This document shows positions 17,890 through 56,955 of a DNA stretch of 56,955 nucleotides, one piece after another. The DNA comes from Rhizomucor pusillus (Eukaryota; Mucoromycota; Mucoromycetes; Mucorales; Lichtheimiaceae), in assembly GCA_900175165.2 (NCBI GenBank), contig FWWN02000228.1:265-57219 (forward strand), written 5' to 3'. Numbering within the stretch: the stretch's first letter is position 1; the number at the start of each line of letters is the position of its first letter. Both the position numbers and the translations under genes were made by a program. Under the pieces are notes generated by a model. That model made no database searches, had not been told where the DNA came from, and saw only the letters and a list, made by a program, of their open reading frames with translations.

Positions 17890-19500
17890 ATGTTGGATAT
17901 TAACTTGCTTTTGGAGGATCGCGGTGGTAACCCTGAAATTGTAAAGGAGTCGCAGCGAAGACGCGGTGCTCCCGTTGAAATTGTTGACGAGATCATTGCC
18001 CTCTACAAAGAATGGGTCAAGAGTACGCCACACAACACAGCTTTGAACTGCACAAGACGCTTCTCTTGACGCTTTATTTTTTTCCCCTCTCATGTAGCTC
18101 AATTCCAAAGCGAACAAAAAAACAAGGAGATCAACGCCATCCAAAAGGAAATTGGCAAAAAGTTCAAGGCCAAGGAAGACGCTAGCGAGCTCGTTGCAAA
18201 GAAAGCACAGCTCCAAAAGGAAAAGGAACAGTTGTTGGCCCAGGCGAAGGAGGAAGAGAGTATCTGGAAGGAGAAACTCTCCACCGTTGGTAATATTGTC
18301 CACGCTTCTGTACCCACTTCTATGGATGAGGCAAGTTCTCTGCCACCACCCAGATCCGCTGGCATATTTGTTAACCTTTATTCCGCGTACCTGCAGGATA
18401 ACAATGAGATTATTCGCACTTACAACCACAACGGCGTCGAGCCTGTCAAAAAAACTGATATCTTGTCACATCACGAAGTTCTTGCTCGGTTAGATGGCTA
18501 CGACCAGGATCGTGGTGCTAACGTTGCTGGTCACCGTGGATACTTTTTGACAGGTGTTGGTGTTGATCTCAACCTCGCCATGATCAACTATGGTCTTTCT
18601 TTCCTTGCTAAGCGCGGCTACAAAAAGTTGATGACTCCCTTCTTCATGAAGAAGGATGTCATGGCCAAGACTGCTCAGTTGAGCCAGTTTGATGAGGAAT
18701 TGTACAAGGCACGACGACACGCCGCGACTATCTATTTATCTGTCTTTACTAACTATTCATCATTATCAGGTCTCCGGTGATGGTGATGACAAGTATCTTA
18801 TTGCTACTTCTGAGCAGCCTATCTCTGCCTTCCACGCCAATGAATGGTTCGAGAAGCCTTCTGAACAGCTTCCTATCAAGTAAGTATTAACGACGAGAGC
18901 AGTACTTGGATGAATTGTGCTCACTTGGTGATTCTTTAAAGATATGCCGGTTACTCTACCTGTTTCCGCAAGGAAGCCGGTGCTCATGGCAAGGATACCT
19001 GGGGTATTTTCCGCGTCCACCAGTTTGAAAAGGTCGAACAGTTTGTCTTGACTGATCCAGAAAAGTCTTGGGAAATGTTCAACGAAATGATCGGCCATTC
19101 TGAAGACTTCTTCCAGAGCTTGGGTCTCTCGTACCGCGTCGTAGCCATCGTCTCTGGCGCTCTTAACAACGCAGCCGCAAAGAAATACGACTTGGAAGCC
19201 TGGTTTCCATACCAAGGCGAATTCAAGGAACTCGTCTCCTGCAGCAACTGCACTGACTACCAATCCCGCCGCCTTGAAATCCGATGCGGTGTCAAAAAGA
19301 TGTCTGACCGCGAGAAGAAGTACGTGCACTGCTTGAACTCGACTCTGTGTGCCACCGAACGCGCCATTTGCGCTATCTTGGAGAATTGGCAGCGCGAGGA
19401 CGGTCTCGAAATCCCACCTCCTTTGGTCCCCTACATGGACGGCCGTACCTTCATTCCATATGTTAAACAGCTCAACACTAAAGCCAATGCAAAGAAATAA
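17890..19500 (+). CDS. SES1: Seryl-tRNA synthetase, cytosolic
   Basis: Four exons (17890-18022, 18098-18708, 18770-18879, 18942-19500) give 470 aa; the yeast enzyme is about 462. The N-terminal long coiled-coil arm binds the tRNA ([38 protein letters not shown]). The class II catalytic core follows: [38 protein letters not shown], motif 2 [17 protein letters not shown] and motif 3 near [20 protein letters not shown]. It charges tRNA-Ser (and the Sec tRNA precursor where present). Intron 2 (18709-18769) has a GC donor after AAG; no GT donor keeps the reading frame. The start ATG at 17890 gives the expected N-terminus. Confidence 0.95.
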
Positions 19501-22534: not shown

Positions 22535-23853
22535 GTAAGTAGTTGTTAGAATTGTATTGGATAACTTGATCTACTGTCAACGAACCACCACGCTGATCTG
22601 TCGTGTCTTGCATCATCAATCACGGAAAGGAAGACGGCAACGACAAAGATGGAAACAAGAGAAAAATGAAAAAAAGAGTAAATATACCGTGGAAATGCAT
22701 GCATGTGTGCGGCCTCAACTATACTCGGGAAAACAAGCAGCCGGTCAAAACAATGCACCTTGCTGGAGTGTTCAATGAAAACCAGAAATAAACTGTGAGT
22801 TACCTAAATACGCAATTGTTTGACCTCATTGCATACGTCTCACAAGCACAGATGAGCGGATCGTGAAAACAACGACCGAGATTCAGGGCAGTCCTTCCGG
22901 ACCCACTCAAAGCCCAATCCCTCTCACGTCATCTTGTATAATGATGCGTACGAATTTATACTACTGAATTTCGGGCTTCGTGCCATTCTCCACGATGATC
23001 TGTTATGCTACTTGACCTTGGCTTGAGCTCTCCATATCAGTTGAGTCGGCATCGGTGGCATTGTTGTCCATGAATTTGATGCAACGCCATCATGCTAAAG
23101 TGGAAAATGTTTGGTTACTTACTCCAACCTTGACAAAGCTAGACCTTGAAATAACCTTCAGGTGGAGGATCTACATCCTAGGCTCCGGGATCTTGATACA
23201 GGATTTCAATTGCGTGAATGATGGCTGCAGCGAGCGGATTAGTTGTTTAACTTTTTACTTTATGGTTTAAACGTGGGATGCTGTATCCTATTTGCTGGTT
23301 CAAATATCTGCGCATCAGCAGTTTTGGAAAAGCTTGCGCTTAGCAATTTTCCATTAGGCAATCATGATCTTTCAACCGGCCAAGAGAAAATGCCACGAAA
23401 GAGCCAAGAAATAAGAATCACAAATTTGCAAGGTTCCCTAAGCTTACAGTATTTAGTTTTCGACTCCAGCAGCAACGCTGACTAGGAGCACTAGTATCCT
23501 TATCACCTGTCATAAAATGGAAAGCTGACGGGATAATGTTTCCATGGTTGCCAAACATATTGGCAAAGGGATATCAACATTCGATGGTGCCGTGAAATGT
23601 TCAAACATCATAGTAGAAAGCTTCTTTCGAGATGCTATATAATATTCAATATACATAATAGTCCAAAATTCGTTGACTAGTCATTCAAGACGGATACAAA
23701 TGTCAGGAGATGGTATTTGACGTGACACATGCAACTTCTTTCCCAACCCCAAGACCGGAGTTTCCTGCTATGCAGAAAGAGAACCCAAAAAGAGAAATTA
23801 TCTCTGTCTCATTTTTTTTCCAACTCACTTTTTTTTCCTTCCCTTCTCTTGTC
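22535..23853. other. 1.3-kb intergenic stretch between MFS gene and FA2H
   Basis: The two genes are divergent. The plus strand near 23270-23480 has an open frame with text such as GCCILFAGSNICASAVLEKL, but neither strand gives a recognisable protein. It may be promoter DNA or old relic sequence. Pyrimidine tracts occur just before the FA2H start. Confidence 0.4.
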
Positions 23854-24993
23854 ATGGCCGTCAAGCTGTATACCCCGGCAGAAGTCGAGAAGCACAACAA
23901 CGTCGACTCTTGCTGGGTCGTCTACAAAGGCAAAGTCTACGATGTTACGGAATTCCTCCGGGATCATCCCGGCGGTGAAGACTTGATCCTCAACTTCGCC
24001 GGCAAAGATGTGTCTGACGTTCTCCACGATGTCAACTACCACCCGCACTCAGATGCCATCTATGACATCTTTGAAGATTTTTACATTGGCCAGGTTGCTC
24101 AGGACCAGACGGCAAAGAAGCAAGATGAGCAGCAGCAAGTAGAGGAGCAGGAAGAAGAGATCGACTATAGCAAGGAAGATTTCCAACCCAATGTCACCGA
24201 TCTTGCGCTAGACGTCAAAAAGAATCAATTTTTGGACCTGCGAAAACCGCTTATTCCACAGATGCTAAGAGCCAACTTTACAAAGGAGTTTTACCTGGAG
24301 CAAGTTCACAAACCTCGGTATCTTCCTTACCCTGCTCCGTTCTTTGGTCATCCGCTTTTGGAACCTTTGAGCAAGACGGCGTGGTACGTTGTACCGATCA
24401 TCTGGCTACCTGTTGTAGCCTACCAGACCAAGCTCTCGCTTGATTACGGCCTTCCGGTGGCCACAGCCGTGTGTTTCGGTCTCGGCATCCTCATTTGGAC
24501 CCTGCTGGAGTATGGTTTGCACCGATTCCTTTTCCACGTTGACCAGTGGCTTCCAGACCACCAACTGGCCTTCACTCTTCATTTCACTCTGCATGGTTTT
24601 CATCATTATTTGCCCATGGACAGGTAAATTTTCAGGAATGCCCTTATCGATTTGGGGTGGAGATACTCATACGGGGGATTTTTTATCAGATTGCGGCTTG
24701 TGATGCCACCAGCTCTCAATGTGTTCATTTCCTATCCCTTAACGAGATTGGGCCATCTCTTATTCCCTCCCATCATTGCTCACGCCATTATTGCCGGCGG
24801 TTTCTTCGGCTACGTTCTCTACGACTGCATCCATTACTACTTGCATCACGCAAAGGTCTTGAAGTTCCACTTTAGCGAGATGAAAAAGTACCACATTGCT
24901 CACCACTACAAGAACTTTGAGTCCGGTTACGGCATCACCTCAAAGATGTGGGACTATGTGTTTGGCACCGTCTTGGAGTACAAGGATGATTAA
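23854..24993 (+). CDS. SCS7: Fatty acid 2-hydroxylase with N-terminal cytochrome b5 domain (Scs7-like)
   Basis: Two exons (23854-24623, 24690-24993) give 357 aa. Residues 5-85 are a cytochrome b5 domain with the heme motif HPGG at 38-41 and a second His in DVNYHPHSD. A Glu/Gln linker leads to a membrane hydroxylase domain. Its histidine boxes are seen as LHRFLFH, LHGFHHYLPMD, CIHYYLHH and HIAHHYKNF, and they bind two irons. The enzyme puts a 2-hydroxyl on the very-long acyl chain of ceramides in the ER. The start ATG at 23854 follows a pyrimidine-rich leader; upstream in-frame sequence does not fit the family. Confidence 0.95.
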
Positions 24994-37458: not shown

Positions 37459-38394
37459 CACCTTTCCCTTCAAATCTTGTAGATAATTCCTTCCGCTGTA
37501 TCCTTATTCCTACGGACCTTTCTTGATGTGAACGTGATAATTTGCAAATGATAGTAGACAGGCACTATATCGTAACCAATCATTGTTTTTCATATTCACC
37601 TAGTATCTATTCAAAGTTATGCTTAGATCCTATGAGAATGTTCAACATAAAGGAACAACATGAGGTCAGCATCGTGACCGACTGAGCAATCAGAGACACC
37701 TCAGAACTTTTCAGGTCCAAGTTCTCTCTATGTACAGTACTAGGCAGAAGTTCAGTGTCATCTACCTTAAAAGGAAGCTGAATAAAGCGTGCACGGTCTT
37801 TAAGAAGCCCCTGCATAAACGTGGCGTAACGACAGTAGTAAGATGAGCTACGCAACTGATAGCCAGAGAAAAGATATTGTACTTGCGTTGATACTACAGA
37901 AAGAAGCCCTTAGCTTTTTGGCTTCTTGGAGTAGCTCTGGAGCTATTTGTGATACCTTTTAAATGCTCTTGTTCTTAGTGTTCTTGATGCGCCGTAATGC
38001 GAATAATTACACGAGCACTTTACAGATACCAGAAAAGCATAAAAACTACGTAGATCATCGTATTTATTAGCTGGTCTACTTTAGGAGGTCGTTTACAAGC
38101 ATCACGATTACCAGGAAAACTGATTGAGATCAAGAGTTCAAATTACTCACATGTACATCGTCGCACATTGTATATAATGGGACAGAGGTTCTTTTATATA
38201 CGTGTAGCTAACAAAGTTGTAACAAGTGTATCGTGGTCCTTTTTTTTTACAACTGGCATCAGGGCTTCGTTATGCAAAAGATACATTTATGCTGAGTTTT
38301 TCCCCCAACACGACGCATTTTCCCTACATCGTTCCCTCTTTGATAATCACAAACGGACTGCCGTGCAGACACCAGCTGCCAACTCGTAAACACC
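37459..38394. other. Intergenic with one open frame of unknown nature
   Basis: 936 bp. On the minus strand 37607-37852 stays open and reads YCRYATFMQGLLKDRARFIQ and FKVDDTELLPSTVHRENLDL, which looks protein-like, but it has no ATG and no recognisable partner exon. It could be a relic of a gene or element. The remainder is promoter DNA for the Myb-like gene, with a TATATAA-like stretch near 38170. Confidence 0.4.
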
Positions 38395-40266
38395 ATGGAA
38401 GAATGTAATCAAGCTGAGGTCAAACTCGAAGCAGAGGACGACATTCACACACTTTTGAATGTATCTGCTGCAAATGAGGATTTCGCAGTCAAGGAAGAAC
38501 CCTTTGAATTCGACATGGCCTCCGTTCGTGCGCAAAGTCCACGCCTCGCCGATGTCCTCCAGTTTATTGAAGATATATTTCACGCTGAAGACGCAAAGAG
38601 TGGACGGGATATACGCAAGGCATACACAGCAAAGCTGCGCAGCGAGTATGTTTCCTTGCTAGTTCCCGACAGCAACAGCCAGTCTTCTCGTGAAATGACG
38701 CCAGGAGTTTTAGCAGACGAAAATAGATCGAGGACGGAAGAATATCCTGGGCGCATAAATGAAGGAGTAACCATGTTCATCGATGGAAAAGATGAGAATC
38801 AAAACAGCAGCGGCAACGAGAGCTATGCAGCATATAGTCCATTGCCATCAAGCCTCTCCTATCTATACGAGGACGAATTATGGGATGAAGAAACAGCGTA
38901 TGAATATATCCAGAGATATAGCCAAGATCATCCAACTGCTGTAGAACAAGTACATGAGCTAGAGCAGCAGGCCGAGGTCGATCATCCACGTGCAGAGCTA
39001 CAACTCAGCGGTTCAAAGCGGAAAGCAACAGAGCCTGATGATATGGGAAGAATTCAAAGCCGCAATGACGGCAATGATATGACGGCTGAGCCTATACTAC
39101 CGGAAAACAAGAAACGCAAATCCAGCAATCTGCTCAGGAATGAAGCGCATGACACTGAAGCAGAGGCACAAATCGATGCAGATACCCAGAATTATATCCG
39201 ACATCGCCAACGAATAACAGAGGAGCCACGAGAGGAGCAACAGCAGGATGATAACAGGAATTTACGAGAAGAAGCACGATCTAGAGGTCCCGGACGGAAC
39301 ACTCTTACGCTTGACCTTCTGGAAGAAACTACAAATATCATGAATGACTGGAATCACAACGCCGCGCTCAATGTGCAGACCGGATCGAAACGAAAGAAAA
39401 CGAAACCCAGTTATCTATTTGACGATGAACCGTCGGACGTCGAGGAAGAAGTAGCATATTTGCATGTCGAGATCTGCCGGCATACTACGGGCCACCAGAA
39501 CATCAGGACAGGCACAGCGTCTGGAGACGCAGAAGGAAGCATTAACTACAGTGAGGAGAGGAATGTTACAAATATATATAGACCATCGACGCCAGCGGTA
39601 AAAAAGGCGAAGCCTAGTTATTTATTTGAGGATGAGTTGTCCGATGTCGAAGAAGATGTAGCATACCTGCACGTCGAAGTGTGTAGACAGCCTCGCGAAT
39701 TAACAAGTGAAGAGCAGCAAGGACATGAATCAAATCGAAGCCTAGATGTTAACAGCCTCAGAGTGGAAGCACCGATTGGAAACGCAGAAAGAAGGATTCA
39801 TAATGTTATATCACCCAGACCGCCAGTCAAGAAAGCAAAACCTAGCTATTTATTCGAGGGTGAATCGTCTGATACCGAAGAAGAAGTGTCATACCTGCAT
39901 GTCCAAACGTCTACGCAAAGTCAACTGCAGAATCCACAGCGACGAGGCAGTGATGCCAACAATTCGAGGACACACCCACGAGCGACTAGTCTGGAAGGAG
40001 GAGGAGCATGGGCAACTACAGTAAATTACACACAAGGCGTCAAACGATTTGGATCACGCCGTTTCTGGACATTGGAAGAGATAAATGCATTGGAGTCTGG
40101 TCTTTTGCAGTATGGGCATCGATGGGCGCATATCAAACAGAACAGGATGGAGCTCAGGAACAGGACACCCATGCAAATCAGAGACAGAGCAAGAACAGAA
40201 GTCCGGAAACAATTGCAAGCCGGTCAGGATCTAGGTCCTTATACCATCTGCAGATCAGTTGTCTGA
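38395..40266 (+). CDS. Myb/SANT-domain protein with three internal repeats
   Basis: A single-exon 623-aa protein. The N-terminal acidic region contains RLADVLQFIEDIFHAED. The middle is disordered and holds three copies of a 27-residue module of the form K-(T/A)-K-P-S-Y-L-F, acidic, (S)D-x-E-E-(E/D)-V-x-Y-L-H-V, at about residues 333-360, 402-430 and 477-505. The C-terminus at about 548-605 is a Myb-like helix bundle (RFWTLEEINALESGLLQYGH, then NRTPMQIRDRARTEVRK). This spacing is close to telobox or TRF-type Myb domains, so double-stranded telomere or promoter binding is possible; that is an inference. The lack of introns is unusual among its neighbours. Confidence 0.75.
   Translation: MEECNQAEVKLEAEDDIHTLLNVSAANEDFAVKEEPFEFDMASVRAQSPRLADVLQFIEDIFHAEDAKSGRDIRKAYTAKLRSEYVSLLVPDSNSQSSREMTPGVLADENRSRTEEYPGRINEGVTMFIDGKDENQNSSGNESYAAYSPLPSSLSYLYEDELWDEETAYEYIQRYSQDHPTAVEQVHELEQQAEVDHPRAELQLSGSKRKATEPDDMGRIQSRNDGNDMTAEPILPENKKRKSSNLLRNEAHDTEAEAQIDADTQNYIRHRQRITEEPREEQQQDDNRNLREEARSRGPGRNTLTLDLLEETTNIMNDWNHNAALNVQTGSKRKKTKPSYLFDDEPSDVEEEVAYLHVEICRHTTGHQNIRTGTASGDAEGSINYSEERNVTNIYRPSTPAVKKAKPSYLFEDELSDVEEDVAYLHVEVCRQPRELTSEEQQGHESNRSLDVNSLRVEAPIGNAERRIHNVISPRPPVKKAKPSYLFEGESSDTEEEVSYLHVQTSTQSQLQNPQRRGSDANNSRTHPRATSLEGGGAWATTVNYTQGVKRFGSRRFWTLEEINALESGLLQYGHRWAHIKQNRMELRNRTPMQIRDRARTEVRKQLQAGQDLGPYTICRSVV
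39385..39912 (+). repeat. Three coding repeats (KPSYLF module)
   Basis: Units at about 39391-39474, 39601-39684 and 39826-39909 encode near-identical modules (KPSYLFDDE, KPSYLFEDE, KPSYLFEGE; EEEVAYLHV, EEDVAYLHV, EEEVSYLHV). The separating 125-140 bp is not repeated. Confidence 0.9.
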
Positions 40267-42858: not shown

Positions 42859-45800
42859 TTACCACAGCTCAAACATGTCACTGGGCCACTGCCCGGATTC
42901 TCTTGCCTGCCAGTATTGACCAGCATACTGGAATGTCTTCCCGATATTGTTCTCGCTGCCATCAGGGTTTGCGATGAAATTCGGTTCAACGTGTTCATCA
43001 GGTTGAAGAGTGAACCATCGTGGAGACCATACTTTGCCTTGCTGTTCAAATTCCTTGCGTCTCTCTCGTTGCTTCTGCTCAATTCTTTGCTTTTCAGCAT
43101 CGGCCTCATCCACCAAACCTAGAAATTCGCGTGTTATGATAGGAATCAAAGTTAAATATATTTGTTTTTTTCCTACCATTCTCATAGAGACGTTGATCCG
43201 GGCGCAGGCGAGTGTCGGTAATCGGCAACTTTCCTCGTTCGAGGTCAGTAATTTCGTTGAGTTCGACGCAGTACCGTGTGAAACCGTAATACTTTGAGTA
43301 ATCCTCGATACCAGGCGGGTTTGCAGTCCACATGACAGACAGTTTCCGCTTGTTCATATCGATTTCTTCTGCCAATTTATCGCTCCATTTGCCAACAATG
43401 CGGCGGCATTTCTTGCCTGATCTGTCATAGAACGTTGCTACGACATCGTTTCTGTTCGTTGGTGCACCAAAGAGACCTCCTCCTGTACCTTCCTTGAATG
43501 TGACGCTTGCGTATTCGCCTGTCGTGTGATTCTTGACCTGCATTTCGCCTGCAGTCTCCAAATATTTCTCGCCTGCAATCATGTTTCGCATCCAGCTGGA
43601 AGGTTTGTTGTATGTAAAGTGATCGTCGTGTCCCGTCAAAGTTACATGATAAATGCCCTCCGTCATGAATTCCTACGTTGTAAAGTAACCATTCATTAAC
43701 TTCGTTTGCCGTAGATGAGCGAAGGAAACTAAACTTTACCATGGATTTGCCCCAAAATTTGCTCTTAATCTTTGTACATTGCCAATATTTGTAACTCTTT
43801 GCCTCTGCGTGTGCCTGCCAATATGGTTAATTCAGATTGGTACGTCCATTTTACTACAGGGTACTGCTTGTGTATACTTACGGCGATGACAAGAGGATTG
43901 TGGGATACCTTTTCCGCAATGAAACGGAAACCCTTATCAGGCCGTATGTTCTCATATGTTTCAGTCATCATAGGATTGAAAGGCTAGATATTGCAATCAA
44001 AGTAAGAATGGTTAGATAAATCAATTTATTTACGTTTGAATATCTCCAAAACTGTACCTTTCGACCAGTACGGTATTGAGAGGATGCATAGCTTGAAATA
44101 GCAAAGATAGCGACGTGCATCAAGCGTTCCATTGAATCGGACAATGTGGCCGCTTTGTCTAATAATTCGCAGTATTCCAATTCTTCGCATGCTTTTTGCA
44201 GCATGTTCAGCGGTTCATTCATGCTGATAGGCATCGAGATAGTGGAAAGATCTTTGCCGACGTTCTTTCTAAACACTGCCAATGCTGATCCAACGTCTCC
44301 GACAGCGGGTGATGGAAGACGTCGTCGTCGAGGGCAATCACCTGCCAGACTAAAATCGAGGGAGCCTTCGCTGCTCTCGTCATTGTCATTTCCTTCGGTT
44401 TCTACGTCACATAAGAGATATAATCTATAAGAGTTACGAAATGTCTTATAGTGTTACCATCTTCATCATCGTCAGAACTGTCTTCTTCGTTTCCTTCTTC
44501 TTCCCCTTGAAAGAAGTCGTCGTCGCCACCACTGAGGACAATATCCTCGGCATCAAAGAACTGCTCGGATATGGACGACCGTGTGCTGGTGACCGATTTT
44601 CGGAATGAATGATGATCTGCACTGTCCTGATTCTCTAGGCCAGCTGCCTTATCCGTAGCCAATAGATCCCGCACAGTTCGCCATTGCCTATACTGCTCAT
44701 CCGCTGTGTCTCGCACTTGAGTGTGATCCTTGGAAAGCTGTGCTGCCAAATCGGATAGCTGTTGATATAATTCCCGAGACTCTGCTGCAAGCGCCAATCG
44801 CTGGAGTAAGGTACGCAAGTGATCAATATTTTTGCCCATTTTGGCAATATCTGCAGCCAGAGCGGCAGATCCAGATAAGCCAGTCTCCAAGGCGGCAATA
44901 GCACGAGATGTACCAACAACAATTGTGCCGTTAGTATCAGGCACTTGAGCTCCCTCGTTGTCACCGTTTGTAGCTTGACCTAAATCACTTTCCAGAACGC
45001 CTGATCGATATTCACGGAAAGCTGCAGTCCAACGCTCGTGGTCTTCGGAAGATAAAGTTTTCAGGTGGTATAGCATTGTGCCTGAATCAATATGGATCAG
45101 GCGCTGATCAGGATTGGAGGAGATGGTCGCCAGCATGATCTGTATTGATCCTCGTGTGACACTGTTCGGCGATAAGGAGTATGAAAGGACACCCGAAGGA
45201 GAGAGTTGGAACCACCGTTTTGCCCAACCTTTTTTCCACAGAAACAGTGTTACACAAGACGCTTTTTCTTCGCGCATTGACACTAAAGTTTGCTGCTGTC
45301 ATTTTACCTTGCATTTTCTTGCGCTTCTTCTTCAGCAACCAGCCAGAAATCTCATGTTGTGGTTCGGAAAGGGATGCTTTAATGTCCGCATCGACCAACG
45401 CGACCGAGAAGGTTAGCGTTTTAGCCTTGTTTCTCGAGAAGGTATTATCTATAAATATGTAAATTAAGCTCGCATGTTTACTTGACGAGAGAGTGCGAGT
45501 GCTGCATAGTGGGCAACTAATTACCGAAAACAAGAACATAGTTGCCTGGTTCCTCAACTACGTGGGATCCGACCACTTTGGTGTTGCTCGAATTCATGTG
45601 CTGGATAGGAATAATTTCGTCGAGACCCTGCTCTTTGAGCTTGATGGAGGCGACCGACTTGGCGCGTGGGCGGCTGCCGGAACCCATGGTTGAGACAGTA
45701 GAAGCAGCATAGCTTTGACCTGATGCCGGCTCAGCATCGTCATCTTGGCAAAACGGGAATCAAAACTCTCATTTTGAGCACCACATTGTCGCTTGTCTTA

Positions 45801-48023: not shown

Positions 48024-49836
48024 TTACATCTTTGGACTGAAGCTTCTATTTGCACTCCATTGCTTGTCGGTTGCCCATGTCTTGATCAATTGAAGTGCTA
48101 TCGCAGTTTCCGGTGGCAGCGAAAAGGTGGCATCTGGTTCTCTGTTTAAGGCAGCCAGAACCTCTGCTCGAGAGAACCATGTAGCCTTTTCGAGTTCCTT
48201 GTCTTCCAACTTGATCTCTGTTGTGGAAGCTTCAGCAAGGAAACCGAACATTAGGGAGTTTGGAAATGGCTAGATACACAAGGCAGTCCGTCAGTAAAGT
48301 GCTCAAATGTGCGATTAAAATTTCTCACCCAAGGCTGGCTACTGTGATAAACCACACGATTGACAGTAATACCGGTTTCTTCTAAAGCTTCTCGTCTCAC
48401 AGCTTCTTCGACAGATTCACCGGCCTCCACAAATCCTAAGGGAGACCATCGGCTAGTTATAGTTGGCTGCTATATACACAGCTGCTCAGACTGTACCTGC
48501 AATGCATGAAAACATTTTTCCGGGCCATTTCCGCTGACGGCCTAACAGGATCTTGTCTTCAGAAGGATGTAATATGCATACAATGATGGTCGGATCTAAT
48601 ATAAAACATAAACTTGATGAATATGATGCAAAGGATATTAAAAATGTCATATAGTCAGTAACCTGTCCTAGGGTAGGCAAAGTTGTGTATACCCTTTTGG
48701 CTGATGCATGGCGTTTCTGCTTGTGCACCGCCGTCTGCTGGAATCGGTGGGCATGTGCGTTTGTGGCCTGCTTCTGCTGAGATGGTCTTTCGACCGCAAG
48801 CAGGACAGAATTGGTTCCGAGCGTTCCAATCAACTATAAAAGGCGGAAATCGTCATTGAAGTATATGGTATAATCACCAAGAAATCTCTTATTGTACCCA
48901 TTGCTCTGCCCTGTGCTAGGATTGCAGCCGTCGGTTTATCCAGGCTCATGGCTCTAGGAAGAGCAGGAATATATTCTAACTGGCGCGATTCAAACTCTAC
49001 AACGTACCGAAATTGTAAGTTGCTTACCGCATCGTCGAATTTGCTCTCTTTTCATGTCGAGTACCTTCGTTTAACTTATTAGATTCCTCTTCATGAGCGC
49101 CTCTGGGAGTCATATCTAAAGCCCAATAGGCCGTTCCATGTTCGCCCTTGCCATCTCTTTCGTCGATGCCTAGGAAAACCAAGATAATTTCATCCCCCTC
49201 AGGCACAGGCTTAGTAACTTCGGGTTTGGCGTCTGGATACACTTTGTTGACAATTGTCGCTACTTCTGTGTACTTTGCAAAGTAAAGTCCACTCGCGTCG
49301 AACAAGGGATTGAGCTCCTTCAACAAGATATATCTTGATCGTTCAGAGCGTGCAATTCCCCGCAGCTTGTGATATTCAGATCGATACCATCCATATCTAA
49401 GGTATCCGAGAACCAGCAAAGGAAAACATACTTGTAAGCATGCTGTCATGTGCATATATTGTACCCGCGGCCATGAATACCTATTTAGTGGGCTTCCTGC
49501 AAAGAAGTTGGTCCTATTGGGCGGGAATCGAGCGTCGTGACCTTCACGATTGCCGGTATTGCCAGCCTTAGCGACCCTGATAAGCTGAGCAATCTTATCG
49601 AAGCCCCAGAACACTGCCACTTCCTCTGCAGTTTTCCCCTCTACATTGACAGCTGACAAATCGCACGACGTGGTGAGCAGATACTCTACAATTGGCAGTT
49701 GGCCGTAACGTGCTGCAAAATGCAAAAGCGTCCAACCACGCTCATTCTTTTCAGTAAGGCCCTGAGGATTTTTCTTCAAGAGTTCGAGATCTCCAGCAGC
49801 CGCTGCTTCGAACAAGTCTTCTTTTGTTGCACCCAT
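48024..49836 (-). CDS. NPY1: NADH pyrophosphatase, NUDT12/Npy1 type with ankyrin repeats
   Basis: Proposed exons (49481-49836, 49101-49396, 48898-49047, 48663-48833, 48497-48595, 48329-48435, 48024-48269) give 474 aa. Ankyrin repeats lead ([39 protein letters not shown]). Then come [16 protein letters not shown], a zinc ribbon ([23 protein letters not shown]), [18 protein letters not shown] and the Nudix box [20 protein letters not shown] plus TGI. The tail has [14 protein letters not shown], the stretch typical of NADH diphosphatases. It hydrolyses NADH to NMNH and AMP, in peroxisomes in animals; the C-terminal PKM is at best a weak PTS1. The join at 49048-49100 is uncertain: frames change and only a poor GC-donor intron or an indel explains it. 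The rest is clear. Confidence 0.88.
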
Positions 49837-52500
49837 ATGGAAAGGAGATTATTCAAAAAAAGCCAGAAAAGATAGGCTGACTCAGCTCGTTTCGCATGAA
49901 TTTTAAACTGGGCACTTAGGACATGTATGACAAATACAGAATTGACGTTCGTTCGATGTACCAAGCTGTCTGTTATCGCCGTGCAGCGAACAGCCCGAGC
50001 AATACAAAGGCCTTTAGCTCAAGCTCCATAGTCGCTTCCAACTTTTACAATGCTGGAAATTGAATTGGAGCCACGACAAACTTGACTGGACCATCCCCAC
50101 GAAATTGAGCCATCGGATTAGCCAGGCAAATCTGGCTACCTGTCCTGAAAATGGATTGGCCACGAACTCGGACCAAGACAAAAAGCCTTGATGACCAAGT
50201 TGCCAAGAAGGCGATGAAAGATGCTAGCTTTTGGGTTAAGAAAATATACGTAAGCACGTCGATTGACAATCGTTCACTGCACAAAATGTTAGACGGGTCT
50301 GACCCCATCCGACCCGTCAGATTGCGACCTCTATCCGCATCCGGGAGGAGCAGAGACTCATTCTCTCATACGCTGCTATGGCTGAAGTCCATTTTCATTA
50401 CACTTTGTGGGAAAAACACAGTGCCATTACACTTTTCTGGTGAGACTTGCTCTCGCTACAATTTTGTAGCCCTCAAGTCCAATTCAGACTCGTGCCGCAA
50501 CACTTACCTCCACTTGGTTTGAGTGACTTTTAAATCAAGGGAAAGGTTACTATTTATTGAGAACTGATGTTAAAGATGATGATATCAGAACTTGAAAGAA
50601 ATAGAGCTTACTGCTCGGTGGTTGGTGAAAAGGTTGATGGAAGATAAAGAGAAGAGTTTGGCAAAGAAGCACTGATGACAAAACAAAGACTTCGAAATAG
50701 GCACATGGTGATTTTCGGTTAATATCCTTTCTGAGCGTTGTCCAAAACGTTGAGCAGCAGCATCGTGTGAACATCTCTCGTCAGTCTCTGCAATTATGCT
50801 CTCGTGAACTACTCAATGCTGCCTCGCCTTTTGGCCTTTAGCCTTTGGGTGGTGAGTTACAGGACGTGGGAAGAGGAAAGCGGGGCTTTGAGGCAAGCAT
50901 CTATTCCAGCATACTATCGGTTTGTATGGTAGCATGTATGGTGTATGGGCAATTGGATTAGATGCGTGTGATACAGATTGTGAGGATGAAAAAGGTATGA
51001 CTTACATTGCGGCTCTACTTCTATATTTTTTAATATCTTTTTTTACGAGCAATATCTTGAAGCCATCATTGTCATCACCTCCAGTAAAGGACTGCACCGA
51101 CTTATTATCAACGTCTTGATATATGACAAACCTTCAAATTTGGGCTCATTTTGGCAGCTGGTTGCTGAACATTTTTGCGAGGACTATCGGCATCGATCTT
51201 AACAACAACACAGAGATCGACATGGAGCGTTGCATATTGAGCTTATCGGCGAAATGCCACATGCCGCGAGTGAGGGCCTTGACCTTCATCAGCGAATTTT
51301 TGCTTTCCTTGATAGTTTTAATGCTTTCGATGACCGGTTTAAGCATTGATTCCTGCGCCTTCTCAAGATTATGTTCCGCTCCGGCTCCGCTGATCATCAT
51401 CGGTTTGCTCCTGCCTATCTTTTCCACCTCTATTTGATACACAGGCATTGGTACAGTAACTGGCGCTTTATTTTGTGTTTTTCCTCGTCGTCCTCGTCGG
51501 CAGCGTCTACGAATAATGGGAAAAGAGTAGAAAAATACTTGCAAGGTCCACCATCATGCACTTTATCATCAAGCACAAGCAGTGTTTAGACCCCTGCTAG
51601 ATTTGAAGCGAGGAAGCAGACACAAACCGTCCAATTTTCAACAACTGTTGCTGGAAAACATCTGATCTGCTTAAGCCTTCAGCGTCTATACTTGCTCGTT
51701 TTTTAAAAGATAACGAGCATATATCTTGGAATGAAGAAAAATTTCACGAACCAGGCGATGCCGACGATTGAAGAAAGACACATTGTACAACAAAGAATCA
51801 ACGTATACCTCTTTGTCAATAAACTCGCAGATTTTCTTTATCGTAATTCATAAAGTGAATTAATAAAACCTGATGAATTAGCGAACTTTGTCACTGCATG
51901 GCTCAGATAACTGCTCAGTATTATCATCAGCAGATCTCTATCGTATACCGAAATTTCTCTCGTGTTCTTTGTCCTTTCAGTATGCTTCCATGTCATCATC
52001 AATAGCCCTATCTTCTCCAATATGCGTTGCTGTACTGCTTATATCTTTCTTTACGAGTGTAGATGTATGAGTAAGGAAACCAATACGTGGCAAAGCCCTC
52101 TTTCAACACAGATTTTCTGCATTCGTTGTACAGGAGTATCCACCAGTCCCAGCCAAAAAGTTTAGAATGCATCCACTGTGAAATGTTCAAATATCTTGAG
52201 TCATTCCTTGAGAGAACCTTCCGGTTTGCAATAATAATGGGCGGGCTAAATGGACTGTATTGCTATTATAAGAGAGACGAACAAAAGATCTGTCGCTTGT
52301 GCAAGCAGGCATATAAAGTGCAAAAATCTAATTTGATGGATCATGTATCCCATGGTAATGGCCCAGAGAATATAGAGTTATCATCAGGGCAATAATCAAT
52401 GAGTTCTGCCAGTGCAGGACAAGTGATGCGATACGGATGCCTTTATGTTTGTACAATACCGTTAGTACTTGGATCATTGGTAACACTGTATTGTGCTCTG
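49837..52500. other. 2.7-kb gene-poor stretch with coding-like relics
   Basis: No intact gene was found. The minus strand at 51146-51520 is open and reads VYQIEVEKIGRSKPMMISGA and KALTRGMWHFADKLNMQRSM. A second minus-strand piece near 51000-51120 reads SFTGGDDNDGFKILLVKKDI. A plus-strand piece near 52281-52345 has a zinc-finger-like C-x2-C-x13-H-x2-H. A perfect 8-bp inverted repeat with 11-bp spacer lies at 50292-50318. Pieces lack starts and consistent splice sites, so I take them as decayed mobile or gene sequence. The region also holds the NUDT12 promoter. Confidence 0.4.
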
Positions 52501-53552: not shown

Positions 53553-54647
53553 ATCCTAGTTATGGTCGAAAGGCTAGTGAATAATAAATTTGGAGCTCGG
53601 ACACTGAAGGTTTTGGGTCATTGTAATCAACGGTGTTCTATTTTTTGTGCCTGAGATCACGATTTTACCGGTTATGATCTATAGCTCAAAACTATCTATT
53701 GGATACTGCAGAGATTCCTATGACTTGAACCTACTTGCTATAAACGAAATCATCATAGCTTTGGGATTCGGTGAGATCAAGAACATTTACGAATTCAGAA
53801 TTATCCTGGTTCGTGCAACACCTGAAAGATTCTGCGACGCATCAGAGACCTGCACTCCAGTAGTCCAGTACAAAAGCTTGCAGTCTCCTATTTGTTGATA
53901 GAAGAGGCGATATCTATATTCGAGAAATTACATCTCGATCGTCTAGGCCTTTATCTTTGACCAGAGCAAGAACCATAATGCCAACGATTCGTTGCTAGTC
54001 GAAAAAATTGTCAAAATGGGAGAAGACGCTCGATCCACACAAAGATAAATACAACTTCAAAAGCGGTTGGTTTACCGTAAAGGGCATGTTGGACCAACAG
54101 CGACTAACAGTTATGTTTTGAGCTTCCGTAATCCCAAAATCACTGCTGTCTTGCGCAGCGCAGGAGCATCCAAACTCTTTTAAAGCAAAGGCGCTGCTTT
54201 ATTGTCTAGGCATCCCCAGAGGACTGATGTACGAACTACATATAAAGTTAGATACCATGTTATTTTTAGCTGAGGTGATGTCCTCGAACTGCATTGCTTG
54301 CAATCACTTTTGTAGATATACTGTATTTTTAAAAACAGTTGTCGTTTGGAGCATAAAATTGCACCACAAACAAGGCAAATTTAAACCTGTAGAATAAAAT
54401 TAATAAATATTCTTGTCGATCTAAGGAAGAAAACTTACCATATTGGTTCAAATTTGCCATGTAGCGCAGTTGCTCCAAACAATGCCAACCCGTTTTTACT
54501 TACCGAATCATCTAAAGAGAAGCAGTCTCAATATTAGTACTTCGATAATATTAAGAATCCAAGATGAACTGCAAAGCTTACCGTACAAACCTAAACCCTT
54601 TCGGGTCCCACATTCGCAGTGGTGGATTGATTTGGTCTACAGAAGGC
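53553..54647. other. 1.1-kb non-coding flank of the transposon pseudogene
   Basis: AT-rich, with no recognisable protein. A plus-strand open frame at 53647-53898 has no family resemblance. The stretch 54300-54647 directly downstream of the pseudogene stop is where a TnpB/Fanzor guide RNA or element end would be expected. I could not identify terminal repeats by eye. Confidence 0.4.
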
Positions 54648-56955
54648 TTAAGGGTGACCAAAGCCCTCCCAGATTTTTCTTGCAATGAAGTACATATTCT
54701 TCGAGGCATTGGTGTCCCTATTCCATAGCATTCCACAGGTTTGGCCATCCAGGATGCCATGGTGAGTAACACCGTCCTCCGTCTTCAGCTTCTTCAGAGA
54801 TTTTGACATGCATCTATGACAAATCTAAAGTTGTCATGAATAAAAGAGACAGAGTATTTTACCAGTGATTCATCATAAATGGTAAAGTGCCCTTACTTGT
54901 GATGTGTTATATTCGCTGATAGTCACGAGCGCGATTTCTCCCCTAGCTTCTCTTCTTTGGAGCATTTTCCACAACACACCGACCGCTCCGCATTCGTGTC
55001 CTTTGATTTTGGTCTGATTCTTGCCAAACATTACGTCGCCGAATACCACGAGTGGCATCTTGCCCTTGCTTCGCTGCGGTACTGTTTCTCGTTTCCATTT
55101 TTTTCTTTTTGTAGTTGCAAATTTACTAGCGTCGATCGTAAAGCCGATTCTGGCTGCGACGGTATTCTGATGAAACATTTGGTTGATTTACATGGATATT
55201 TCGAGATCCCCATTTCACGTACCTCTCAGTACTTTGTCGGCGCTGTTCTCGATACTGTTTTCTCTTCTTCCGGTTCCTGGCACGTTTCGTCCGCTTCTTG
55301 CGGTTGTACCTTTTGCCGCCGTTTATTATAATATTCGCAAGTTCTTCACGTGCTCTGTTTCGGCCTTGTAAGTTCGGGAATCGTGTATGCGCATGGTATC
55401 GTAAGTAGAACTCGCGTAAGGTCGTTCATGAACCTGGAGATAATGCACGTATCGATTATAGCGTTGGATGTTTGCTGTCTTCGCAGTAGGAAAACGTGAC
55501 TCGATGACTTCAATACCATGTTATTTTTTCCGTTTCTGTAATCGTTTTGTTCTTTGCTTTGCACCTATCATGTTACTGTATTCTGATCGGCGAACTCGAC
55601 GTATTTCATGTTCCTGTTTATTACATCCATAGGCTGCTGTGAAAATATGTCGCCGGCCTGGATCTATGGCGCATACAGGAAATATTCGTCCACTTCCTGG
55701 CTCGAGAAATCTTCCAGGTCCAGCTGAATGCATGGTTTTCTTTTTGCTCTTGCAAATTGAAAATGCACAGCCATACCATCTGTGTTGATATGGTTTGTAA
55801 AGATGCTATTGTCATCACTAGAAGGGTACATTAATGAATGATATGGTATATTCCATCCGGAAACCATACCTAAAAAATCTATAATTGTCCATGTCGAAGA
55901 CTTTTTGGAATAGCGAGCAATGGCCTTCATATGAATCTGACTTGCTGTTGTCGTTAAGCAATACCCTTAAAGCCTTTCCGTTTACTGTTATAAAGCGCTG
56001 CTTGAGAGTCGGCACTGGTGTAAGAGCAAACAATTTCGGCAATGTACGTGTGGGTTTCATAGTATTCTCGGCTGCTGCATGCTCTCGCTCGTACTCCTCT
56101 AATATAGCACGGAGCACAGGAACAAATGCCCCAGGCGTCGCGGACATGCTCTGCGTACTCCATGGCCTTGGTGCTAATGGCTGCAAAAAGTCCTTGAGCT
56201 CTTGTATGGCAAGTATCAATTCCAATGGTGCGTCAGCAAATCCATCCAAGTCTGCTGGTTCACCTCCAGCAATCCATTCGTAGATATAATCGTTGCTAAA
56301 AATATCATGAGCATACCACAATGCCGATTTTTATAGCTCGCAGCATTACAGGCACAAACTTGTCCAATTTATACTAGATATACGATACAACCCGTCGTTG
56401 AAAATTTTCGACGATGTGATTTGTATATGCAGTTGCTATTTCCTTGCAGGCTGCGGAAAGGATGTCACTGTAACATGTGACATTCAATGGATATCGAATA
56501 TCTGGATGGAGAGCCGAGAACGAAGCCCAGAGTCCGTGTTTGAGAAATTGCTTGGGAACTTTGTATTTGTGTTCAATACAGGTAAGCCTAGGATGAGCTG
56601 GCACACGGAATACCAGAAGTTTTGTCCAAATATGTACGTCGGGATGCTATTCTGACTTTGCGAAATAAAATAGCCATTTACGACGACAATGGCCCTCAGC
56701 ATCACCTGGCCGAGTTCTGGGTGATTGCATTTTTCAATTGCATTTGGTATTTTGGTGTGAAACGCTCATGATCTTTGCCAAACTTTTGAATAATGCGCTC
56801 TTTTATGTTCGGCTTATGGTTGATACAGTTTCTTGACGCTGAGTTTGAGTGTCCGCTTTGACCACAAGAGGCACATATAGATCTAGCATTGATGTTGACA
56901 TTTGCCGCGTGGCGTGCAGCTTGACCATCTTTCTTTTGCCTTTTATGTTTTGCGT
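54648..56955 (-). pseudogene. TnpB/Fanzor-like RuvC nuclease gene of a mobile element, decayed, 5' end beyond window
   Basis: Read right to left on the minus strand. Edge to about 56720: basic start and a zinc knuckle (SICASCGQSGHSN..NC, C-x2-C-x4-H-x7-C). About 56630-56375: FGQNFWYSVCQLILG, FLKHGLWASFSALHPDIRYP, CKEIATAYTNHIVENF. 56295-55870: helical middle domain. 55817-55690: TNHINTDGMAVHFQF. 55673-55641: RuvC-I CAIDPGRRHIFTAAYG. 55620-55180: EHEIRRVRRSEYSNM, VIESRFPTAKT, then LREFYLRYHAHTRFPNLQGR and a Lys/Arg-rich stretch. 55150-54897: MPLVVFGDVMFGKNQTK and ISEYNTSQ. 54824-54648: ICHRCMSK, TCGMLWNRDTNASKN (RuvC-III). Introns look intact at 55818-55869, 56296-56374 and 54825-54896. Disablements: in-frame TAA at 55521-55523 and frame changes near 55695, 55430, 55160, 56580 and 56700. 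The second zinc CxxC has lost one Cys. Confidence 0.75.

Follow-up and report, generated by a model that had tools for sequence, protein, structure and literature searches.

A decayed, intron-bearing Fanzor1 gene in a fungal genome, with a conserved hairpin at the right end of its element

A Fanzor1 gene at the contig end

The window, by which we mean the whole stretch of 56,955 nucleotides that was analysed (G000:C248:265-57219), belongs to a 24.45-Mb assembly of 353 contigs, and on the right it stops where its contig stops. The host is probably a fungus close to Rhizomucor: the best PDB match of L070, a lipase gene of the same genome, is 6qpp (E 2.6e-79), the lipase of Rhizomucor miehei. For R. 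miehei a genome of 27.6 Mb with 43.8% G+C is described (PMC4023604). The evidence supports the presence at the contig end, on the minus strand, of a decayed, intron-bearing gene for Fanzor1, a eukaryotic TnpB. A first-pass annotation had named a series of motifs on this strand, and all of them are indeed found at the positions and in the order it gave. The gene motifs also lie inside the interval that it had drawn (54648..56955); the element itself reaches past that interval, to 54321. The 5' part, which had been described as missing, is truly absent because the contig ends there, hence its absence is an effect of the assembly. The features are as follows.

54319..54320, no strand: TA dinucleotide flanking the right end, a putative target-site TA (of 39 right ends cut by script, 32 have TA next to them)
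54321..56955, minus: decayed Fanzor1 transposon copy; similarity drops sharply at the right end, 54321, and the left part is cut by the contig end, 56955
54330..54498, minus: right-end hairpin, candidate omega-RNA scaffold (minimum free energy -58.4, z -6.38)
54387..54438, minus: putative spliceosomal intron of 52 nt within the loop of the hairpin (all 26 rows of alignment A2 have ATG/G[TC]A)
54651..54824, minus: zinc ribbon (second CxxC damaged) and RuvC-III with WNRDTNASKN (PF07282, E 0.0012; C-terminal profile)
54825..54896, minus: 72-nt GT-AG intron between SEYNTSQ and ICHRC; its donor position is common to family loci
54876..55187, minus: RuvC-II piece with SEYNTSQ, the rearranged catalytic glutamate, at its end (25 other matches in the same genome; C-terminal profile)
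55129..55520, minus: helical and Lys/Arg-rich bridge pieces, after the in-frame stop and with internal frame changes
55524..55805, minus: RuvC-I piece, CAIDPGRR (18 other genome matches; profile A3 matches SpuFz1 8gkh)
55821..56330, minus: REC/WED-like piece, an open frame which by eye resembles L046 upstream of RuvC-I
56374..56646, minus: REC-like helical piece (9 other matches on 6 contigs of the same genome)
56702..56953, minus: N-terminal piece with the CCHC-like zinc knuckle CASCGQSGHSNSASRNC, supported by the paralogue L055

In L055 a single frame of 203 amino acids holds both the knuckle and the helical region that follows it. The Lys/Arg-rich stretch of the window copy lies within 55129-55425 (minus strand), the ICHRC...WNRDTNASKN block lies within 54651-54824, and a stop codon can be placed by eye at about 54591-54593, in a frame common to L058. 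Two related copies, C49 and C25 (L058 1693 and 1932; L062, sense, 1445 and 1683), carry two consecutive CCHC-like knuckles 5' of the Fanzor coding sequence. Elsewhere the window contains host genes (874-1548, 18070-18777, 23677-24624, 38347-40263, 44405-45298 and 49027-49848), whose frames include a LITAF zinc ribbon, a seryl-tRNA synthetase N-terminus, a cytochrome b5/fatty acid hydroxylase, and Myb, PH and ankyrin proteins; in four of the ten other window frames scanned there was no Pfam family.

The window copy is dead, because it combines an in-frame stop, which separates 55524-55805 from 55326-55520, with frame changes relative to C144 and the loss of a zinc ligand; the earlier claim of decay is thereby borne out. 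The ligand is lost in the second CxxC, which has become GxxC by loss of its first cysteine. Since L058 and families 2 and 3 keep CxxC intact, we read GxxC as decay of this particular copy.

One apparent break is of a different nature. The gene had been called intron-bearing, and we find that the interruption at 54825-54896 is a GT-AG intron and not a lesion, because its donor falls at the same codon throughout much of the family and other families read continuously across the site. Of 24 loci of the family that were scanned, 15, among them the window copy, have GTA immediately after EYxTSQ or a near form of it (K replaces E in C189); the pattern used detected no such block in the other nine. 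Five of the six loci scanned from two other Fanzor families run uninterrupted into ICP, with the same glutamate-CxxC block and no intron, and under the same pattern the sixth, L042, yielded no such block.

The pieces of this gene recur across its own genome, thus the motifs seen in the window are not a matter of chance. The 18 further matches of the RuvC-I piece are spread over 15 contigs, the best at E 6.7e-27, and the N-terminal piece has 9 others; some matches are two pieces of one copy. The search of the genome which the first-pass annotation had called for did therefore reveal a multi-copy family. The intact copy it had hoped for, and with it the active relatives it had supposed elsewhere in the lineage, did not emerge: none of the loci read showed a full-length copy free of breaks, though in many of them the sequence is interrupted by the end of a contig or by Ns.

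Profile searches had likewise been proposed as a check, and their outcome depends on what is searched. Window pieces alone give weak results with Pfam and NCBIfam. PF07282 matches the last piece at 19.4 bits, under its cut-off of 26.3, and the other seven of the eight pieces have no Fanzor-type Pfam match; TnpB models reach only E 0.07-0.19 against the window pieces. Across the genome PF07282 has 57 matches at E up to 1, with 23 above the cut-off and the window's own at 15.9 bits; some of the 57 resemble unrelated zinc fingers, and those on C21, C196 and C261 are near-identical contig-end stretches. Against PDB the 58-aa piece alone returned five weak matches, led by a transposase at E 0.074; two of the five are unrelated proteins. 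With the knuckle-REC frame of L055 there were three spurious matches, and with the 289-aa piece of L046 none.

Profiles that include paralogue pieces do match Fanzor1 structures. With the C-terminal profile, made from the window, its relatives and other families of the genome (three of the six rows of profile A4 come from other Fanzor families of the same genome), the top PDB match is the Fanzor1 of Parasitella parasitica (9cf0, 1.4e-7). SpuFz1 (8gkh, 8.9e-7), TnpB (9nzp, 2e-5) and the Guillardia Fanzor1 (2.5e-5) come next; up to E 0.1 the profile matches 13 PDB sequences. The RuvC-I profile A3 has SpuFz1 8gkh as its sole PDB match (E 0.0018). By profile rank, with 9cf0 and 8gkh first, the gene is thus nearer to Fanzor1 than to TnpB, and no named Fanzor2 is among the matches. 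When viral contigs were searched with profiles A4 and A3, no relatives were confirmed.

The residues agree with this assignment. As hallmarks of Fanzor, the available account names DPG in RuvC-I, a glutamate six residues before CxxC, and an aspartate after the finger (PMC10711439). The window has DPG in CAIDPGRR, and the rearranged glutamate (ExxxxxxCxxC) in SEYNTSQ-ICHRC, read across the 72-nt intron; the spacing of the motif holds because that intron is recognised. The RuvC-III aspartate is expected four to eight residues after the finger, and here the D of WNRD comes six residues after the final ligand position. The complete C4 finger (CxxC...CxxC) is what the window copy lacks, its second half being GxxC. 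Hence the call of a eukaryotic TnpB of Fanzor type stands on the C-terminal and RuvC-I profile matches together with DPG and the spacing of glutamate and aspartate. The same genome holds at least two further Fanzor families, of VDPG type (L040, L041, L042, L049; L043, L044, L045, L046). The L040 group has a sharp right end of its own, about 75 nt past the stop, with a different small hairpin.

Ends, copies and derivatives of the element

Family copies lose their similarity sharply at window 54321, and the flanks beyond are unrelated. Among the seven of 39 right ends which have no TA as cut by script, C104 and C155 have one within a few bases. In all four copies with both ends read, TA is found at both; the right end of C104 is degenerate, and the script cut missed its TA. 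The left end starts TA-C(A/T)GGTTTTTGA in these four copies. A genome search for the left-end motif, allowing up to three mismatches, gave 20 occurrences, and one for the right-end motif gave 45, as against none in the reversed control for either. We saw no empty site, so that the TA could be part of the element rather than a duplication.

These observations bear on whether the window could hold a domesticated host gene derived from a Fanzor instead of a transposon copy. The flank of the window copy is unique, which is the one point that speaks for domestication. The in-frame stop, the frame changes and the lost zinc ligand, together with the many copies that have unrelated flanks and sharp ends, refute it for the window copy, and we give it almost no credence.

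The element is about 4.1 kb long (C316, C329). Two elements were searched for inverted repeats that would join one end to the other, and neither has any. Of the 30 ORFs of at least 55 aa listed in the 5' part of two decayed copies, 8 were scanned with Pfam at E up to 0.01, and none of the 8 had a match; a broken transposase could escape such a scan, because both copies are decayed. Membership in Tc/mariner was considered and rejected, there being neither terminal inverted repeats nor a recognised DDE transposase in the copies examined. Helitron-type ends (PMC3627910) were dropped since the ends lie at TA. Beside the C329 copy (L055 5659-6339) there is a frame which by eye resembles the helix-turn-helix part of a Tc1-like transposase.

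Three copies, C14, C94 and C230, share one deletion of 1.34 kb (window 54966-56308) and differ in their right flanks; they represent a non-autonomous derivative that multiplied. C338 is without 54621-55028 instead. The 45 motif matches and three further ends make 48 right ends in all: 25 are preceded by Fanzor coding sequence at a distance of no more than 1.5 kb, 15 are truncated by the edge of a contig, and 8 have no such sequence, although two of these 8 may lie near a contig edge. L076 (C9) and L092 (C106) are right-end fragments of about 86-97 nt with unrelated DNA upstream, that is, truncated copies which keep the right end.

A conserved hairpin at the right end

The last ~180 nt of the window copy fold as one long hairpin. 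The fold energy of these 180 nt is -58.4 kcal/mol as against -33.2 (sd 3.95) in 200 shuffles, none of which was as good. Rfam has no match in the window at gathering scores.

Conservation was assessed in two alignments. A1 has 35 rows; it leaves out C178 (Ns), C341 (same as C184), C9 and C106 (truncated), C333, C79 and C124 (no clear end), and C25 and C99 (no motif). A2 consists of the 26 A1 rows that align without deletions, and leaves out those with deletions in arm or loop (C14, C230, C338, C316, C218, C197, C206, C109, C156). Two of the latter, L033 (C230) and L094 (C156), have by eye the same deletion in the hairpin loop, between two CAAG repeats.

Over the 26 copies of A2 a structure of 36 pairs has 91.9% of its cells paired; sliding the arms lowers this share to 27.9-43.9%. 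For helix 1 the share is only 86.5%, and part of the left arm is missing from several copies. Changes on both sides of a pair occur in 48 cells, compared with 21.9 in shuffles, and none of 500 shuffles reached as many. The number of pairs with such changes (7) is no more than in shuffles (mean 7.1), and further pair types (24) are below the shuffled value (26.8). Switches at group level, between subfamilies, include G-C to U-A and A-U to G-C. The changes are not independent, because the copies fall into few subfamilies. For the looser 35-row alignment A1, RNAalifold gives only 15 pairs and a small covariation term.

A covariance model of the hairpin, run on 59 sources, had 60 matches, 40 in sense and 20 weaker ones on the reverse strand, all in family loci. 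Nineteen of the 59 sources had no match. Nine of them are loci taken by PF07282 (L040-L043 and L045-L049, seven of them from other Fanzor families, with L047 and L048 apparently unrelated), six are lipase loci, and the remaining four, L061, L063, L068 and L095, belong to the family. Within the window the model finds only the hairpin, its own reverse strand and three matches at chance level.

Is this a structure of RNA or of DNA? Palindromes are common at element ends, and the hairpin could be a DNA-level terminal palindrome serving some transposase, like the subterminal hairpins of IS200/IS605, and not RNA at all. It does finish at the right end of the element, and a third of the matches of the covariance model, 20 of 60, are weak ones to the reverse strand. 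The two strands are nevertheless not equivalent. In 32 of 35 copies the sense strand gives a more stable fold than the antisense, and there are 95 G-U pairs to 25 A-C (ratio 3.8), where A-C would be G-U on the other strand. This is beyond the six slid controls, which sum to 593 G-U and 441 A-C and of which the most lopsided has 148 to 61 (ratio at most 2.4). An inverted repeat linking both ends is also missing from the two elements examined. The asymmetry favours an RNA read from the Fanzor strand, with the caution that the copies are related, and we regard the palindrome as an unlikely explanation.

If it is RNA, it may be the omega-RNA of the Fanzor, because its location between stop codon and right end is where known Fanzor omega-RNAs lie; that of SpuFz1 is placed there in the description at hand, with the guide beyond (PMC10432273). 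A long hairpin RNA could also feed host RNA interference, silencing the family without any role as a guide. It would be in keeping with such a fate that the 36-pair stem is kept across subfamilies and that the copies read are decayed, as is often so for silenced elements. But the stem sits exactly at the right end and has subfamily-specific paired changes, which favours a function for the element, and the position matches that of known Fanzor omega-RNAs. In our opinion RNA interference is an improbable account, slightly more so than the palindrome. As a candidate omega-RNA the hairpin is unusual in shape, because known omega-RNAs have 75-150 nt and shorter stems: for the structurally described Fanzor1 omega-RNAs the source gives 150, 90 and 75 nt, with an SL1 of seven pairs (PMC11423790). 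A single long stem would thus be a new shape.

The loop of the hairpin has some marks of a spliceosomal intron. It starts with ATG/G[TC]A in every A2 copy, and the next bases are mostly AGT. The donors are GTAAGT in 12 copies, GCAAGT in 10, GCAAGC in 2, and GCAGGT and GTAAAT in 1 each; at position +2 T and C occur in 13 copies each, and no other base does, as in GT and GC donors. The segment has 52-55 nt in all 26, a TTATTAAT-like stretch stands 5' of its end, and AG is found at the aligned end in 22; of the other four, three have it shifted by a base or gap and C250 has lost it. Among the nine rows left out of A2, by eye, five keep a G[TC]AAG donor and C316, C218, C197 and C109 have lost the donor by deletion. 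Removing the segment in silico from the window copy leaves a compact hairpin of 128 nt that is nearly as stable, at -54.7 kcal/mol. Folding energy alone does not favour splicing, because in each of the 26 copies the fold is more stable with the segment than without it, the difference being 1 to 15 kcal/mol. No exactly intron-less copy was seen among the family copies. We regard a spliceosomal intron within the guide-RNA scaffold of this family as plausible, though somewhat less probable than its absence. If it is true, splicing would couple the maturation of a transposon's guide RNA to the eukaryotic nucleus. IStrons, which are bacterial intron-bearing TnpB elements, raise the question of splicing versus guide, and a real intron here would raise it in parallel.

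The element and known systems

Taken together, we think it quite likely that the window holds an inactivated copy of a DNA transposon that encodes Fanzor1 and whose right end encodes an unusually long candidate omega-RNA, possibly spliced. The intact element would have encoded a RuvC nuclease in several exons, with a zinc knuckle at its N terminus, and a structured RNA from its last ~180 nt, ending at the right end. If it works as SpuFz1 and PpFz1 do, the nuclease would load the hairpin RNA with a guide from host DNA past the right end, and would cut the matching empty site beside a TA-containing TAM, which would favour retention of the element. The gene itself is a decayed member of an already known kind. 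What is new here is the conserved right-end hairpin: this family from Mucorales, whose dozens of copies have exact right ends and a long hairpin kept by paired changes, provides an independent omega-RNA candidate.

A working Fanzor1 is described from another member of Mucorales, Parasitella (PpFz1 of P. parasitica, PDB 9cf0; PMC11423790). RuvC, zinc ribbon and WNRD block are common to both. The omega-RNA of PpFz1 is given as 75 nt with a four-pair SL2 (PMC11423790), whereas here there is a single long hairpin of ~130-180 nt.

SpuFz1 and its element SPu-1 from Spizellomyces punctatus (PDB 8gkh) are, in the published descriptions, like the present family in being flanked by TA and in having the RNA between stop and right end, in their many derivatives without an ORF, and in D-E-D residues at equivalent places (PMC10432273, PMC3627910). 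The TAs that flank SPu-1 are presented there as putative duplications (PMC3627910). SPu-1 is described as ~2.1 kb long, with terminal inverted repeats of 30-33 bp and one ORF (PMC10432273, PMC3627910); the window family, in contrast, has elements of ~4.1 kb with introns, and no inverted repeat linking the ends was found. In this last respect it resembles MCi-2 and MCi-5 of Mucor circinelloides, likewise Fanzor1 elements from Mucorales, listed as unclassified and without recognisable inverted repeats (PMC3627910). Compared by description, MCi-2 has target-site duplications of 11-12 bp and MCi-5 a putative one of 6 bp (PMC3627910), while here there are TA flanks alone.

With bacterial TnpB, that is OrfB of IS607 and IS200/IS605, the gene shares the order RuvC, zinc ribbon, RuvC and has weak profile matches. 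It differs from bacterial TnpB in the glutamate six residues before the finger, in its spliceosomal intron, and in that TnpB ranks below the two best Fanzor1 structures.
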